A stretch of 64,000 nt of DNA. Source: Okeania sp. KiyG1. Its GTDB lineage: Bacteria > Cyanobacteriota > Cyanobacteriia > Cyanobacteriales > Microcoleaceae. A model generated the notes under the pieces. The model saw only the letters and a list, made by a program, of their open reading frames with translations. It was not told the origin of the DNA and did not search any database. Shown here piece by piece: positions 25,481-31,837 of the stretch. The stretch spans positions 44,583-108,582 of the forward strand of contig NZ_BLZO01000072.1 in assembly GCF_014132355.1 (NCBI RefSeq), in the 5' to 3' direction. Positions within the stretch are counted from its first letter, which is position 1. Every line of letters begins with the position of its first letter. Both the position numbers and the translations under genes were made by a program.

Positions 25481-27520
25481 GTGGCCTACAAACCTCTCCA
25501 TCACAAATATCGTCCTCAGACTTTTGCTGACTTAGTGGGTCAGGAAGCGATCGCCCAAACCCTCACAAATGCTATCCATACTGAACGAATAGCTCCAGCA
25601 TATCTATTCACAGGACCGAGAGGTACAGGGAAAACTTCCAGCGCCAGAATTTTTGCCAAATCTCTCAACTGTCTCTCCCACGATCGCCCTACCTCCACTC
25701 CTTGTGGTACTTGTGATGTTTGTACAGGTATTACAAAAGGGTCAACTCTGGATGTAATAGAAATTGATGCTGCTAGCAATACTGGTGTGGACAACATTCG
25801 GGAATTGATTGAAAGGTCCCAGTTTGCACCCGTTCAATGTCGTTATAAGGTATATGTGGTCGATGAAGTCCATATGTTGTCTGTGTCAGCTTTTAATGCT
25901 CTGCTCAAAACTTTGGAAGAGCCACCAAACCGAGTGGTCTTTATTCTGGCAACGACAGACCCTCAGAGAGTTTTACCGACTATTATTTCCCGTTGTCAAA
26001 GGTTTGACTTTCGTAGAATTCCTCTAGAAGCGATGGTCGGACACTTACAAAAAATTGCTACGGAAGAAAAGATTGAAATTAGTGCTGAAGCTGTCCAAAT
26101 GATAGCTCAAATTGCTCAAGGTGGACTGCGAGACGCAGAAAGTTTGTTAGACCAGTTGAGTTTATTGGCAGGTGAGATTACAGTTGAACGAGTATGGGAC
26201 TTGGTAGGGGCGGTGCCTGAGCGAGATTTAATGGCACTTTTGGAAGCGATCGCCTCTGATAATTCTACGGATGTTTTGGAATGTACTCGTCAAATAATGG
26301 ACCGGGGTCGGGAACCTATTATTGTATTGCAAAATTTAGCAGGATTTTACCGAGATTTATTAATAGCAAAAACTGCACCGACAAATGGAAATTTGGTGGC
26401 GTTGACAAAAGCTACTTGGGAACAACTTTGTCAAGTTTCTCAAGCATGGGATATTAGTACTATTTTAGCTGGTCAAAAACATTTACAAACTTCTGAGGTA
26501 CAAATTAAAAATACTACTCAACCTCGTTTATGGTTGGAGGTAACTTTATTGGGATTATTGCCTGCTGCATTGGCAAGTTCGAGGGTAATAGTTGAACAGG
26601 TACCTGAAAGACAAGTAACCAAAGAAATAAGTAAAAATATTCCAGTTAAAGCCACTCCAAAAACTGCGCCTGAAGTAAAATCACAAGCACCTATTTCTCA
26701 ACCTCCTGAAAGAAAAATCTCGGAGGTACAAGAAATTCCTGCTGCATCAAAAAATGAGGAAAATTTAGTTAGTTCTGAAGGGGTTAATGTTAATCCTGAA
26801 GAACAGAATTTAGAAGAAATTTGGCAACGGGTACTTGCTCAGATAAAAAAAATTGGTACTCAACAGTTGTTCCAACAAAATGCAAAATTACTAAGTTTTA
26901 ATGGTCAAGTAGCTTATATCGGTATTCGCTTTCAAAATTGGTTAAAAAGGGTATCTGAGAAAGCATCTGAAATTGAGGATGCTTTTGAAAAAGTTTTTGA
27001 TATGCAAATAAAGGTAAAAATAGAGGTAGCTAATTCTAATCAGAATAATCATCCTCGAACTAGAAATACAAATTATCCCAATACGACCAGAAAATACAAT
27101 CAAGAAACTCAACCTGATAGAGAACCGGAAACTTCTAATTCTGATGATGAAACTTCAGAGGATGAACCAGAAATTTATCCGCCATCTAATCCAATAAATT
27201 CTCAGATAGAAAACAAAATTATCCCAGAGGTTTCCCGGTCTAAATCACAGTTAAATAATGTGGTGGAGCAGGAAAAATATTCTGAAAGAGAAAGACAGAC
27301 TGTGGAGATCGCCACTCAGCGAATAGTTGATTTTTTTCAGGGAGAAATAATAGATATAGAGTCTCTTAAATCAGTGGATAAAACCAATATATCTACGATA
27401 TCTGAGTCTCCTAATTTATCTATTGATTCTCAGATTGTTGAGTTTGAAAATAGTAATGTTGTTATAGATGAACCAGAGGAAAATGAAGAGATTGAGTTGA
27501 ATGATGATGTTGATTTTTAA
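25481..27520 (+). CDS. dnaX: DNA polymerase III subunit gamma/tau
   Basis: A 679-residue clamp-loader ATPase starting at GTG (MAYKPLHHKYRPQTFADLVG). It has Walker A GPRGTGKTSS, a zinc module (C-x8-C-x2-C-x2-C around CGTCDVC), the DExx box VVDEVHMLS, sensor ATTDPQ and the SRC motif SRCQRFDF. The AAA domains and lid span about 1-370. A low-complexity, acidic linker and a small C-terminal fold (TQRIVDFFQGEII) follow, as in tau. It loads the sliding clamp and holds the polymerase at the fork. No intein is present. The last about 300 codons and some 3' flank are duplicated directly downstream. Confidence 0.95.
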   Translation: MAYKPLHHKYRPQTFADLVGQEAIAQTLTNAIHTERIAPAYLFTGPRGTGKTSSARIFAKSLNCLSHDRPTSTPCGTCDVCTGITKGSTLDVIEIDAASNTGVDNIRELIERSQFAPVQCRYKVYVVDEVHMLSVSAFNALLKTLEEPPNRVVFILATTDPQRVLPTIISRCQRFDFRRIPLEAMVGHLQKIATEEKIEISAEAVQMIAQIAQGGLRDAESLLDQLSLLAGEITVERVWDLVGAVPERDLMALLEAIASDNSTDVLECTRQIMDRGREPIIVLQNLAGFYRDLLIAKTAPTNGNLVALTKATWEQLCQVSQAWDISTILAGQKHLQTSEVQIKNTTQPRLWLEVTLLGLLPAALASSRVIVEQVPERQVTKEISKNIPVKATPKTAPEVKSQAPISQPPERKISEVQEIPAASKNEENLVSSEGVNVNPEEQNLEEIWQRVLAQIKKIGTQQLFQQNAKLLSFNGQVAYIGIRFQNWLKRVSEKASEIEDAFEKVFDMQIKVKIEVANSNQNNHPRTRNTNYPNTTRKYNQETQPDREPETSNSDDETSEDEPEIYPPSNPINSQIENKIIPEVSRSKSQLNNVVEQEKYSERERQTVEIATQRIVDFFQGEIIDIESLKSVDKTNISTISESPNLSIDSQIVEFENSNVVIDEPEENEEIELNDDVDF

Positions 27521-27548
27521 CCTAATTTTGCGGGGTTAAATAGCAAAC

Positions 27549-28453
27549 TTGTAGCACTGCACCTGAAGCAAAATTACAACCACCTATTTCTCTACCTCCA
27601 GAATCAAAAATATCGGAGGCAAAAGAAATTCGGTAGTGCATCAAAAAGTGAGGAAAATTTAGTTAGTTCTGAAGGGGTTAATATTAATCCTGAACAACAT
27701 AATTTACAAGAAATTTGGCAAAGGGTACTTGCTGAAGTGAAATTGAGTACCCAACAGTTACTACTTCAACCTCAGCCCCAAGTTAGATTATTAGGGTTTA
27801 ATAATCAAGTAGCGCGTATTGCTGTTAGTTCTGATAAATGGCAAAAAATGGTAATGTCTAAAGTTGCTAGTATTGAAGCTGGGTTTGAGAAGGTTTTTAA
27901 GACTGCGGTAAAAGTTAAAGTAGAAGTAACGAATACCAAGGGAAAAAATCAAAGTGTTAGTGAAAATATTTATCCCAATAATAGTAAAAGAGAAAGAAAT
28001 ATAACTAACTATGAAAAACATCAAGAAACCTCTAATTATGAGGATGAAATTGTAGAAAATGAGCCATAAAAAAAAACACTTCCAGCTAATACAATAAACT
28101 CAGAAAAAGGAAACAAAGATGAATCTAAAATTTCTTGAACTCAACAAAATTGGGATGATCAGGTTGAAAAAGAAAAATATACGGAAAAAGAAAGACAGAC
28201 TGTAGAAGTTGCCACTCAGCGAATAGTTGATTTTTTTCAGGGAGAAATAATAGATATAGAGTCTCTTAAATCAGTGGATAAAACCAATATATCTACGATA
28301 TCTGAGTCTCCTAATTTATCTATTGATTCTCAGATTGTTGAGTTTTAAAATAGTAATGTTGTTATAGATGAACCAGAGGAAAATGAAGAGTTTGAGTTTA
28401 ATGATGATGTCGAATTTTAACCTTATTTTTCTGGGTTAAATAGCCAACTTGTA
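27549..28453 (+). pseudogene. Tandem, decayed copy of the 3' end of dnaX
   Basis: This stretch repeats 26655-27548 at an offset of about 900 bases, including the GGGTTAAATAGC and AACTTGTAG phrases after the stop. It has no start, several stops and indels. The middle (27737-28069) is still open. The first two thirds have diverged clearly. About 27311-27442 and 28211-28342 are identical or nearly so, and the match stays high to the stop. Confidence 0.85.
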
Positions 28454-28454
28454 G

Positions 28455-28580
28455 AGTGCGTTAGACGGCTTAAATTAAGACTAGGAAAAGGATTAGCAAT
28501 CCGTCGTAACGCACCATTTTAACTGCGGAACTGACTAAACTTTATTTGGATGGCGGTGCGTTAGCGAAGCGTAACGCACC
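28455..28580 (+). repeat. GTGCGTTA palindromic repeats upstream of the reverse transcriptase
   Basis: GTGCGTTAGACGG (28457 on) pairs with CCGTCGTAACGCAC (28501 on), and a 26-bp near-perfect palindrome (GGTGCGTTAGCG / CGTAACGCACC) fills 28555-28580. Such GGTGCGTTA repeats are common between cyanobacterial genes. They also lie exactly where a retron RNA would be expected, 40 bases before the RT start. Confidence 0.55.
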
Positions 28581-28619
28581 CTACTGGACTTATAGTGGAA
28601 TGACACACCTTTTTTTGAT

Positions 28620-30359
28620 ATGGACTTAGATGAAATTCTTAAGAATGGTATTGAATATTACTGGGAAAAAAGCTACGAACAAGCTATTGAATGCTTTAAC
28701 CAAATTATTAGTTTTAATCCTAACTATGCTAAAGCATACCATTATCGAGCTTTAGTTCGGCGGCGACAAAGAGATGACAAAGGTGCTAGAGAAGACTTAG
28801 TACAAGCTGCCTCACTTTTGGGAGACCGAGAATACACTGCTATGTCTCAAAAAATGCTGAAGTTAATTGGTTGTGATTATCGACACAAATCTCCCCCTAG
28901 AGAGGATGATTTTGATTTTATTTTTTATGACGAGAATTGGTACAGTGATTATGATGAATTGTCAGAAATGTTTCCCGAAGAGTTTCCTCCCTCTTGGGAA
29001 TATGAAGTTGATATATTAGATGGAATTGCTTATGCAGGAGAAGAGTTAGACAGACTCGAAACATGGCTCTTTAAAAAACTAGAACGTGCTTGTTATATTC
29101 AAAAAAAACGTGCAATAAATGCTAAGTTTGATGAGAAGAGATTAAGGGAAAATAACTTACCATTATGTAATTCCCATGAAGAGATTGCTGCTGCTATAGG
29201 AATTAGTATTGCAGGATTACGTTGGTTAGCTTATTCGCAAAAAAAATACCACTATACTCATTTTAAAATACCAAAAAAAACTGGTGGAGAACGAAACATA
29301 TCTACACCTATTCCTCTATTGAAAAAAGCACAAAATTGGATTCTGAATAATATTTTGATAAAAATCCAACCACACGATGCTGCTCACGGGTTCTGTACTG
29401 AACGTTCCATAGTTACGAATGCTCAACTGCACTTAGGGAAAGAAGTTATTATCAATATCGACTTAAAAGACTTTTTTCCTTCTATTTCCTACAAACGAGT
29501 CAAAGGAGTTTTTCAATCTTTTGGATACTCAAAAACAGCATCAATAATCTTTGGTTTGATTTGTACTGCACCCAAGTTAAAAGAAATAAAATTGGATGAA
29601 AAACTTCATCAACTACTATCCTGGAAAGAACGTTATTTACCTCAGGGTTCTCCTAGTAGTCCTGCTATTAGTAATCTTGTTTGTCGGAGGTTAGATAGCA
29701 GATTAACTGAAATAGCTGTAAAATATGGTTTTAATTATACTCGCTATGCTGATGATCTAACTTTTTCTGCTTCTGGAGACAGTCTCAGAAATATTTCTCA
29801 TATTCTTAAAGACACGAGATTAATTGTAAGATTGCAAGACTTTGAAATTAACGAAAATAAAACTAGAATTATGCGGAAATCTCGGCGACAAGAAGTTACT
29901 GGAATTGTTGTCAATAGTGAGTTGAATATTTCTAGAGAAACTTTAAAACGCTTCCGCGCTACTCTATATAATCTGGAAAAAGACGGTTTAGAAAATCGAC
30001 ATTGGAGGAATTCTCAAGGTGGTGATATTATTGCCTCAATTGAAGGATTTGCTAATTTTGTATCTATGGTCAATCCTCAAAAAGGAGCTAAATTTCAACA
30101 GCAAGTAACTCGGATTAAAGAAAAATATAAACCTAAAAAAACACAAAACAGTCTCGCTCCCCAACTCATAACTAAATCGGATATTATTGCTTTGATTAAT
30201 GACGATATTAGAAAGTTGCACTGGAGTAATAGAGACAGGCGAATATATTTGAGGCAAGTCTACGGGAAACAATCACTTCAACAATTTACAGAAGAAGAAT
30301 TACTGAAAGTACAGAATCATTTTTGTAGTTTTTTAGATGCTTTATCCCAAAAAATATAG
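28620..30359 (+). CDS. Retron-like reverse transcriptase with N-terminal TPR domain
   Basis: A 579-residue protein. Residues 1-70 form about two TPR units (GIEYYWEKSYEQAIECFNQI, FNPNYAKAYHYRALVRRR). An acidic linker (90-135) follows. The RT domain spans about 185-480: IPKKTGGERNISTP (RT1), GFCTERSIVTNAQLH (RT2, with the NAxxH motif at 267-271), DLKDFFPSI (D281), LPQGSPSSPAISNLV (RT4), YADD (376-379), and KTRIMRKSRRQEVTGIVVN with VTG at 426-428. NAxxH and VTG are hallmarks of retron RTs rather than group II intron or DGR RTs. The last about 100 residues are of unknown type. Retrons make msDNA and act in phage defence with a partner protein. The TPR part might be the partner or bind it (inference). 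No maturase, HNH or Cas1 domain is seen. Confidence 0.9.
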   Translation: MDLDEILKNGIEYYWEKSYEQAIECFNQIISFNPNYAKAYHYRALVRRRQRDDKGAREDLVQAASLLGDREYTAMSQKMLKLIGCDYRHKSPPREDDFDFIFYDENWYSDYDELSEMFPEEFPPSWEYEVDILDGIAYAGEELDRLETWLFKKLERACYIQKKRAINAKFDEKRLRENNLPLCNSHEEIAAAIGISIAGLRWLAYSQKKYHYTHFKIPKKTGGERNISTPIPLLKKAQNWILNNILIKIQPHDAAHGFCTERSIVTNAQLHLGKEVIINIDLKDFFPSISYKRVKGVFQSFGYSKTASIIFGLICTAPKLKEIKLDEKLHQLLSWKERYLPQGSPSSPAISNLVCRRLDSRLTEIAVKYGFNYTRYADDLTFSASGDSLRNISHILKDTRLIVRLQDFEINENKTRIMRKSRRQEVTGIVVNSELNISRETLKRFRATLYNLEKDGLENRHWRNSQGGDIIASIEGFANFVSMVNPQKGAKFQQQVTRIKEKYKPKKTQNSLAPQLITKSDIIALINDDIRKLHWSNRDRRIYLRQVYGKQSLQQFTEEELLKVQNHFCSFLDALSQKI

Positions 30360-30370
30360 AGGTCGCTCGC

Positions 30371-30499
30371 TTGGGGTGGAGCGGACTACGGGAACAAAAT
30401 TATCTTGAAGACACTTATTATAAATATTCGCCTGAAGACTTAACCTACCAAGAGTTGCTAGAATTTCTAGAATATCTGAAATCTCAGCCAAGTCCATAA
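30371..30499 (+). CDS. Small C-terminal-like ORF after the reverse transcriptase
   Basis: A 42-residue frame opens at TTG 30371 just after the RT stop and ends EDLTYQELLEFLEYLKSQ plus PSP. The second half looks like a real amphipathic helix-rich protein end. There is no good ATG or ribosome-binding site. It may be a remnant of a gene once joined to the RT operon, or a small partner. I cannot name it. Confidence 0.3.
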   Translation: MGWSGLREQNYLEDTYYKYSPEDLTYQELLEFLEYLKSQPSP

Positions 30500-30589
30500 T
30501 TCTTATTTGATATGTTGTCCAACTCAAGATAAAAGTTATCAATCTATAGATATCCCCTCTTTTTGAATCATGTTATAATTATGAAGTTA

Positions 30590-30775
30590 CGCACAACTAT
30601 TAACAGGCAAAACAGCCTTGCAATCTGGGCGGTGGAGCGCCGTCCATGTCTTAATGATAACTCTTAATCGCCTGGCCTTTCGGCTTTCGGCGAATCACCA
30701 GAAGACTAATGTTGTTTGGTGGACATTTACGAAGGGGCAATCTGTTAGCAGGAGTGCGTGGCTTTTTTTCAGAAT
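30590..30775 (+). ncRNA. Structured RNA candidate, HEARO/omega-RNA-like
   Basis: A GC-richer island in AT-rich DNA. TAACAG near 30600 can pair with CTGTTA near 30744 to close the whole region. Inside are a hairpin at GGGCGGTGGAGCGCCGTCC, one around GCCTTTCGGC, and CACCAGAAG...TTTGGTGG. It ends TGCGTGGC followed by seven T, like a terminator. The layout recalls HEARO RNAs, the guide-scaffold RNAs of IscB transposons, which also occur without an IscB gene. None is seen here. The class is inferred from memory of such RNAs; the pairing is seen. Confidence 0.4.
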
Positions 30776-31030
30776 AGTTTTCTGGAAAACAATTGTTAAT
30801 AAGCAAGGAGATGGGGAAGTTATAAAATCAAAAGGAGGTACTAGACTGACACACCTTAAATAGTGCGTTACTTTTTGGTTGTGATGCTTACTTGGAAGAC
30901 AAGGGATACAAGGTGATAAGGGAGAAAAAAAACGCTATGCACAGTTTTATTTGTGTCAGTCTAATACTAGACTCTAACTCATTTTCTTCCTAAATTCTCT
31001 TAGCATTTTACTGCTACCTATCTTGAATGC

Positions 31031-31837
31031 TTACTTAACTAAACTAGGAATTAAATCTAAAATTGGTAAATCGGGAAAGGTAGAACTGATAGATGATTCC
31101 ACATATAATCCATCAGTAAAAACATTAATCGTGAATTTTTCTTCAGTATAGCTCCATAATTCTGGGATTTCTAAAGCTTGATAAGCATCAAGAGTAGTTT
31201 TGGAAGTTACCGAAAAATTGGGTTTAAAGCCTCGCCCTTCTAGGGCGACTTTTTATTTGCAAGTAAATTGAATATATGCTATGGTACTAAAAGTTGCCGG
31301 GGGGCACTCGGAAACTCTAAACGGACGTGGAGGCAGGCATAAGACTACTGTCAAAGTAGCAGCAGCCTAAGAAGCGTCAACCCGCCGAAGAGCTACGGCT
31401 CAGTAGGAATCTCCGTGCCTTTAGGCCGGAGAGGATGTCAAATCTACCTCAATAGCTAAGTCAGGGGGTGGATCTACAGTCATATCTATCCTCATTCGAG
31501 GACGCATTTTTTGAGCATTTTAAATATAAAAACAGTTATCAGGTTCTAGACCGACTTTTTTCGCTCTTTTCCTAAAGGTTGTCGAACCGAACTCTTCCCA
31601 GTCTCGCTCTTGACTGTCCAGCAATACTTTCACAATATCGCTAATAATTCGGTGTGGTCGTTCGTGAGCGGGGAGAGGAGACATGATGGCTAAAGTTCCT
31701 TGAATATAAGCAATCCGTGTCCTTATTCCTTTAGCTTCTTTTTCCTCCATAAATGCTTCAAACTGCTCCCACGTTAAGTCATTAAGGGTAATTAGACTAC
31801 CTGGGTTAAGCTGAATTTTGTTAATAGGTATGGTCAT
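31031..31837 (-). pseudogene. Uma2-family nuclease gene, interrupted by a small element
   Basis: Removing 31211-31441 joins two exact frames: codons 1-132 (31837-31442) and 60 more including the stop (31210-31031). The joined protein has 191 positions, a normal Uma2 (DUF820) length. The junction reads AIEVD-VTSKTTLDAYQ, as the family does. Conserved parts are EQFEAFMEEKEAKG, LAIMSPLPAHERPHRIISDI, MTVDPPPDLAIEVD and IPELWSYTEEKFTINVF. A TAA at codon 106 (FYI-stop-NAQKM) is a second lesion. Uma2 proteins have a PD-(D/E)xK-like fold and are very numerous in cyanobacteria; their role is uncertain. The ATG lies in the ACTGAAATGAC end of another repeat copy. Confidence 0.88.
31211..31441 (+). mobile_element. 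231-bp IS605-type deletion derivative inside Uma2
   Basis: It lies directly 3' of TTAC (31207-31210). The left end CGAAAAATTGGGTTTAAAGC and hairpin CGCCCTTCTAGGGCG are those of the repeat family of this window. The rest encodes the last residues of a TnpB (LKVAGGHSETLNGRGG, then RHKTTVKVAAA and a stop). It closes with a typical right end (ATCTCCGTGCCTTTAGGCC, then GGAGAGGATGTCAA). Insertion and frame repair on removal are exact. Confidence 0.85.

Follow-up and report, generated by a model that had tools for sequence, protein, structure and literature searches.

A probable type XIII-related retron of Okeania with a TPR-reverse transcriptase fusion and a likely retron RNA behind the gene

Retrons of type XIII, as profiled in PADLOC (RT_XIII, SWIM_XIII and WGR_XIII/HEAT-ARM_XIII), combine a reverse transcriptase (RT) with two partner proteins, and their RNA lies behind the SWIM gene. 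In retron Ec86, the msr-msd RNA is located upstream of the RT gene and the effector is a separate protein. In the types that PADLOC marks as "single gene" (I-C RT-Toprim, XI RT-protease and XII RT-TIR), the RT is fused to further domains. Retron RNAs are often sought upstream of the RT, according to one earlier study (PMC6868368). Here we describe a locus of the cyanobacterium Okeania sp. KiyG1, located within a 64,000-nucleotide stretch of contig NZ_BLZO01000072.1 (positions 44,583 to 108,582, forward strand; hereafter the window), in which a gene for a fusion of tetratricopeptide repeats (TPRs) with an RT is followed by a structured, conserved RNA. The retron RT, the retron RNA and type XIII itself are already known. 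From sequence comparisons, we read their combination in the window as a two-part retron, made up of the TPR-RT fusion and of an RNA that forms a small gene of its own behind it, and as a differently arranged relative of type XIII, with a probability of roughly 0.8. Within the literature searched, whose coverage stops short of the Mestre 2020 classification, no account of a TPR-RT retron whose RNA follows the gene was recognised.

Homologous loci provide the main evidence for the RNA. Relatives were sought in 60 relative genomes and in sets of 388 genomes of the same class, 62 of the same family and 389 of the same order (overlapping sets, with the genome of the window among them). An RT match at E ≤ 1e-150 is present in three genomes of the class set, seven of the family set and 14 of the order set, the union being 14, and these 14 loci are referred to as the TPR group. 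When their flanks are compared by blastn, which needs no model, conserved DNA appears 3′ of the RT gene at all 14 loci, and a covariance model likewise places the RNA 3′ of the RT in 14 of 14 (opposite strand, at most 23.8 bits). An earlier note, made from the window sequence alone, had pointed to a compact structured region behind the gene as a possible retron RNA, a proposal that homologous loci lacking any conserved flanking RNA would have contradicted; the opposite was found, and the region itself (30583-30768) folds with z = -5.0.

The architecture of this RNA is that of an msr-msd beside its RT, closed by a1/a2 inverted repeats, albeit on the unusual 3′ side. Both sides have changed in six of the 15 modelled pairs of the a1/a2 helix. 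Within the helix, the CCTTGCA of the first small stem-loop is invariant in 13 aligned loci, and a strong stem-loop of the form GGGCGGUG-GAN-CGCCGCCC recurs across the group. A -10-like box occupies the same place in 13 of 13 aligned loci under a loose pattern, ten of them having the extended form (a count without a shuffled control), and a T-run ends the RNA in 11 of the 13. Over 13 RNA sequences, 95.3% of the cells in the modelled structure are paired, as compared with 90.7% in shuffles, a level that none of 500 shuffles attained; changes on both sides, amounting to eight pairs and 22 cells, and the covariation score (0.278 versus 0.194 in shuffles) were each reached by 0 of 500 as well, and slid controls of the structure pair at just 29-51%. 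Given its presence at 14 of 14 loci, the -10 box, the covarying terminal helix, the usual T-run and the homology to type XIII RNA described below, the structure at 30583-30769 is the likely retron RNA. The variable hairpin region in its middle is proposed to be the msd, the part that would be copied into DNA. No Rfam family matches at gathering score within the window, and relaxing the threshold for the 30300-31500 interval brings up nothing but an HgcC-like match that stays below threshold and lies outside the RNA. Two relatives elaborate on the common plan: at L060 (6103-6342) the strong stem-loop is doubled, the second one being similar to the first, and at L074 (5114-5324) an additional hairpin resides at the same place.

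The RNA can also be traced into ordinary type XIII retrons, for which 18 stretches with an RT were compared (two represent the same place, leaving 17 different places). A hidden Markov model built from the TPR-group RNAs alone detects the RNA in five of these stretches, in front of the RT, with E values of 2.4e-19 to 5.8e-13, and the covariance model scores it there at 52-73 bits. The gene order in the five loci is WGR/HEAT-ARM, SWIM, RNA and RT, some with genes between RNA and RT; PADLOC typed the proteins of L044 as WGR_XIII, SWIM_XIII and RT_XIII, and these names were carried to the other loci by likeness of their open reading frames (ORFs). Common to both layouts are two stem-loops and the CGAAGG block, and ACGAAGG lies 3′ of CCTTGCA in all 18 ordinary stretches scanned. 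The middle of the RNA differs: ordinary type XIII has a long hairpin there, the TPR group a different and mostly shorter region. The window RNA is homologous to that of type XIII, and the window locus carries an RNA of the type XIII kind.

RNA and RT also occur together across genomes. Of 30 genomes with a type XIII RT, 29 have the RNA, G050 being the miss. Of 40 further genomes just one has it, G009, and no other of the 40 shows a type XIII RT match (in G009, a fragment, 1.3e-79); two others among them contain a different RT (G021) and a broken remnant (G032). Counted by RT, the RNA thus occurs in 30 of 31 genomes with the RT versus 0 of 39 without it (Fisher p = 6e-19), where the RT search in the 60 relatives scored at most 22 first-look candidates per genome and could have missed an RT. 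When the 14 genomes of the TPR group are set aside, the association stands at 16 of 17 versus 0 of 39.

The protein is consistent with this assignment. The earlier note had named a retron-like RT fused to N-terminal TPRs, bearing NAxxH, YADD and VTG and followed by an acidic linker after the repeats, and each of these elements was borne out. The window protein contains NAQLH (267-271), YADD (376-379) and VTG (426-428), motifs that we take to be those of retron RTs, and their residues are invariant in an alignment of the window protein and 11 relatives; these represent 12 of the 14 group RTs, the other two being L075, which is almost a copy of L074, and the interrupted RT of Hydrocoleum. Pfam RVT_1 covers residues 217-430. 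Among solved structures, retron RTs are the top matches (Ec86, 1.8e-42; Ec67, 1e-38), although the RT class of Ec86 differs. The PADLOC profile RT_XIII matches residues 148-515 with 524 bits, the next being RT_III-A at 309, and it matches 12 of 12 group proteins (best 9.5e-168). By clade and by its three motifs the window RT is thus a retron RT, and by profile it is of the RT_XIII class. Antiviral RTs of the DRT2/DRT9 type likewise consist of an RT and one neighbouring noncoding RNA, as they are described, but the window RT scores only 41.5 bits against the Drt2 model of NCBIfam (cut-off 390), and its RNA is related to retron RNA.

Outside the RT domain the protein departs from type XIII. Ordinary type XIII RTs match it only from about residue 141 and have another N-terminal region, whereas the window RT carries TPRs, an acidic linker and an added C-terminal domain (Table 1). 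Pfam TPR_2 matches residues 10-36 barely above its cut-off (27.1 versus 27.0); the repeat is clear in relatives, with 11 of 12 scanned proteins matched (best E 1.6e-11), and a TPR-like region is present at the N-terminus of 13 of the 14 group RTs. A predicted structure based on a three-row alignment, poor overall (mean pLDDT 40.5), contains N-terminal helices at residues 3-16, 19-32, 37-49, 53-66 and 69-83, with pLDDT values of 71-79 in blocks of residues 21-70. The C-terminal helical domain, which the earlier note did not mention, resembles the end of slr1353-family proteins: it matches NCBIfam NF058667 at 1.2e-8 with 35.7 bits, below the cut-off of 100, and has only the C-terminal part in common, so that the protein falls outside that family. 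The same domain occurs three times within a 412-amino-acid open frame of the same genome. No enzyme family emerged for this small helical domain.

Table 1. Features of the TPR-RT locus, in window coordinates
Feature	Position	Strand	Basis
TPR-RT fusion gene, 579 amino acids	28620..30359	+	ORF; PADLOC RT_XIII E=7.8e-158, residues 148-515
TPR region, residues about 3-83, two TPRs and capping helix	28626..28868	+	Pfam TPR_2/TPR_1; model helices
Acidic linker, residues about 84-165	28869..29114	+	Length differs between relatives; alignment, by inspection
Retron RT domain, residues about 173-505, NAxxH/YADD/VTG	29136..30134	+	Ec86 match, invariant motifs; limits approximate
C-terminal slr1353-like helical domain, copy 1	30162..30329	+	Own-genome search using L076 domain, E=3.5e-13
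C-terminal domain, second copy, other frame, mostly past the stop	30350..30496	+	Own-genome search, E=1.3e-9
Extended -10 promoter box TGTTATAAT of the RNA gene (proposed)	30571..30579	+	
Retron RNA, proposed msr-msd, including T-run	30583..30769	+	cmsearch 171.1 bits (the window RNA is itself a member of the model); z=-5.01; type XIII RNA homology
a1 arm of terminal helix	30586..30607	+	15 modelled pairs with a2; inner end by inspection
Small stem-loop SL1 (GCAA...TTGC)	30607..30621	+	96.1% of cells paired; 0 pairs changed on both sides
Stem-loop SL2, GGGCGGUG-GAG-CGCCGUCC	30627..30645	+	99.0% of cells paired; 2/8 pairs changed on both sides
Variable hairpin region, proposed msd body	30646..30728	+	Length and sequence differ among loci; hairpins in fold
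Conserved block ACGAAGGGGCAA immediately before a2	30729..30740	+	CGAAGG invariant in 13 RNAs
a2 arm of terminal helix	30742..30762	+	Inner end by inspection; followed by T-run 30763-30769

The partner proteins of type XIII were sought in 16 genomes, comprising the 14 of the TPR group and two ordinary type XIII controls. SWIM and WGR are present in both controls and in three genomes of the group (G035, G549 and G529). In the other 11 of the 14, including that of the window, there is neither a SWIM match at E ≤ 1e-10 nor a WGR/HEAT-ARM match at E ≤ 1e-40. The type XIII order, with the RNA in front of the RT or behind SWIM, is likewise not seen at the group loci, all 14 of which have it 3′ of the RT. 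Because both the partners and the order differ, the window system is classified as a retron and a type XIII-related variant rather than as a type XIII system. Within 5 kb of the RT, or as far as the contig reaches, the 14 loci have no further gene in common that might serve as a shared effector. Candidates in cis for an effector or accessory role are limited to the TPRs and the C-terminal domain. The layout is like that of the single-gene retrons, a likeness of layout only; those carry Toprim, protease or TIR domains, and the window RT carries TPRs and a small helical domain.

By analogy with described retrons, the system would very probably operate in the following way. The RNA would be transcribed from its own promoter, and the RT would bind the 5′ (msr) stem-loops, prime at the 2′-OH of a candidate guanosine near the inner end of a1, copy the hairpin region starting from the a2 side, and stay bound to the resulting hybrid of multicopy single-stranded DNA (msDNA) and RNA. 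In ordinary type XIII this complex would act together with SWIM and WGR/HEAT-ARM; in the window system the TPRs and the C-terminal domain might take their place. We suggest tentatively that the two modules fill the roles of the missing partners, either by docking an effector encoded elsewhere or by acting with it in anti-phage defence. TPRs usually dock proteins, and an effector encoded elsewhere is therefore likely. The earlier note had imagined a TPR part that replaces a separate effector or docks it, a view in keeping with the lack of type XIII partners. There is perhaps an even chance that the TPR group represents a retron lineage of its own, with an autonomous RNA gene that has its own promoter and lies behind the RT, and with TPR and slr1353-like modules, fused to the RT, that stand in for the two partners. 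The two related layouts, with two partner proteins in one and fused TPRs and a C-terminal domain in the other, offer a clean test of how retrons are coupled to their effectors.

Several observations weigh against this picture. One of the 14 RTs, that of L076, has no TPR, its N-terminus being merely acidic. The T-run is missing from two of the 13 aligned RNAs (L042 and L074), and generic scans of this strand over 30350-30850 return no promoter (no -35 was found) and no terminator. The number of further pair types in the RNA is no higher than in shuffles (138 of 500), kinship among the sequences inflates the covariation measures, and one and the same alignment gave both the structure and these measures. 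Thirteen of the 14 group genomes supplied the RNA model, and the fourteenth (G479) is a near-copy of one of these. Incomplete genomes (the own genome at 92%, G440 at 84% and G549 at 66%) render the absence of partners less certain, and the loci are not all independent, as eight of 14 lie behind the same gene. Finally, the second C-terminal domain of the window copy is out of frame (30350-30496) and the Hydrocoleum RT is interrupted by an insert with stops, for which reason single copies may be decaying.

The genomic neighbourhood bears on whether the system is a defence retron at all. Conceivably, the RT binds the RNA in another capacity, as a domesticated housekeeping RT-RNA pair or as a regulatory TPR-RT. 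The widest sharing of any neighbour is that of a gene which we take to be bchN-like, found before L040, L041, L069, L070, L071, L072, L074 and L075 in three taxonomic families, and such a position, which might be either a kept site or an insertion hot spot, looks more like a long-kept chromosomal location than a defence island. There is also no neighbour common to all loci; a gene in front of the RT, presumably HicB-like, and one for a 352-amino-acid protein behind it are both restricted to the same five loci. Against such a role stand the patchy presence of the group (14 of 389 order genomes, and none of five other genomes of the same genus) and its closest relatives, which are defence retrons in PADLOC, so that we consider a function outside defence unlikely.

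It is less likely still that the window copy is a non-functional remnant of a decayed element. The out-of-frame domain and the interrupted Hydrocoleum copy are what decay would leave, and a transposon-like repeat and a duplicated gene tail, both described below, flank the locus. Yet the RT frame and its motifs are intact, the RNA helix is kept, and 579 amino acids is not short beside the open relatives, which range from 515 to 742; the remaining copies of the group are open. The frame change in the window C-terminus may reflect natural truncation, frameshifting or a fault in the assembly, and the Hydrocoleum copy reads in frame across the equivalent of 30350-30496 yet follows the domain only partly.

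A degenerate duplicate (27556-28429) of the 3′ end of a gene that we presume to be dnaX-like (26663-27529) precedes the RT, with 76.6% identity over 887 aligned bases. Directly 3′ of the retron RNA, positions 30838-30967 form a repeat resembling a miniature inverted-repeat transposable element, with 39-nucleotide inverted arms that are 74% complementary, and its GACACACC is found again in front of the RT at 28602. Further downstream, a repeat at 31207-31444 recurs, with 98% identity, close to an RT gene of contig C93 (L001) and is HgcC-like at only 18.9 bits, under the cut-off.

The possibility that the TPR-RT serves ordinary type XIII systems as an auxiliary RT, acting in trans with SWIM, WGR/HEAT-ARM or RNAs from other loci, appears slim. 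G035, G549 and G529 hold a group locus together with SWIM and WGR, which in G549 and G529 are part of an ordinary type XIII locus, complete and on a contig of its own, and in ordinary type XIII the RT and RNA are often on separate contigs. However, neither partner was found in 11 of the 14 group genomes, and the three genomes in which both occur contain two RTs and two RNAs apiece.

Hardly any probability attaches to the proposal of the earlier note that the palindromes in front of the gene (28455-28580) are the msr-msd, which was rejected. The stretch has inverted repeats, folds with z = -2.4 (28430-28615) and occupies the normal msr-msd place (PMC6868368), but it consists of dispersed repeats, one of which (28555-28580) recurs five more times in the genome at up to two mismatches. 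A blastn comparison (E ≤ 1e-3, 800 bases) finds nothing similar in front of the 13 other group RTs; the similarity between window and Hydrocoleum starts at the RT start codon, and no other front-flank match exists between the window and any locus.

The relationship of the two layouts was approached through trees. In a tree of 47 rows, a selection rather than a full RT phylogeny, built on the RT columns, the TPR group and the ordinary type XIII RTs are together separated from 16 other RTs with support of 99/98; the 16 are 14 viral-contig matches and sequences from two cyanobacterial genomes. The TPR group itself forms one side of a branch at only 65/45, with long-branch warnings. When the N-terminal columns are kept, two distant outgroup rows branch from within the TPR group, as does ordinary type XIII, and the starred branches force two changes. 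Both trees leave out L042 and L075 of the TPR group and L056 and L030 of ordinary type XIII. With the outgroup joining inside the group in one tree and the group reaching just 65/45 in the other, ordinary type XIII may have given rise to the TPR layout by loss and fusion, or the TPR layout may be the older, and we claim neither a loss nor a gain.

Wider searches add few relatives. A pattern search of genome contigs matched 126 stretches, among which one relative, the Hydrocoleum copy, was recovered. Viral contigs contain 375 relatives, and the best 80 of the 375 are at most 40% identical. No plasmid or phage record spans 80% of the TPR-RT protein; the closest plasmid match, which lies outside the cyanobacteria, is an RT on a Methylobacterium bullatum plasmid (L221), 46.9% identical over residues 171-503, beside which the RNA model finds no convincing RNA (best E 0.068).

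Separation of RNA and RT is also seen among ordinary type XIII retrons. In ten genomes (G013, G018, G023, G011, G029, G017, G022, G038, G039 and G059), the RNA and the only type XIII RT reside on different contigs (loci L121-L130 with L045, L048-L054, L056 and L024). The RNA lies 3′ of SWIM, within 2.3 kb, in nine of the ten, and WGR was also seen in six. In G013, a 1.1-Mb contig bears the RNA at 543 kb, and a 2.5-Mb contig bears the RT at 114 kb; where the assemblies are more fragmented, the two may yet be linked beyond the contig ends. The literature searched yielded no recognised description of an unlinked retron RNA or of type XIII with its RNA far from the RT, which does not prove that none exists. 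Where the RNA follows the RT, or lies on another contig as in these ten relatives, such systems could be mistaken for lone RTs, and the RNA model built here makes them findable. If the TPR group is indeed a lineage of its own as outlined above, it and the split type XIII systems would jointly show that the retron RNAs of this group function in trans and that a retron is not a single transcriptional unit. Genome editing would benefit from a retron RNA that naturally acts in trans and has its own promoter.

Some further variation was seen in the ordinary type XIII set. One genome with an ordinary RT has a second, short type XIII-like RT (L135, G056:C59; a 364-amino-acid open frame), beside which the RNA model finds no convincing RNA. 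In six loci (L046, L047, L048, L049, L050 and L051), an ORF in front of the RT looks like ribonuclease III, a name that we assume from the look of the sequence rather than from a search. At L128 (G038), a single SWIM gene is followed by two RNAs, approximately 1.3 kb apart.

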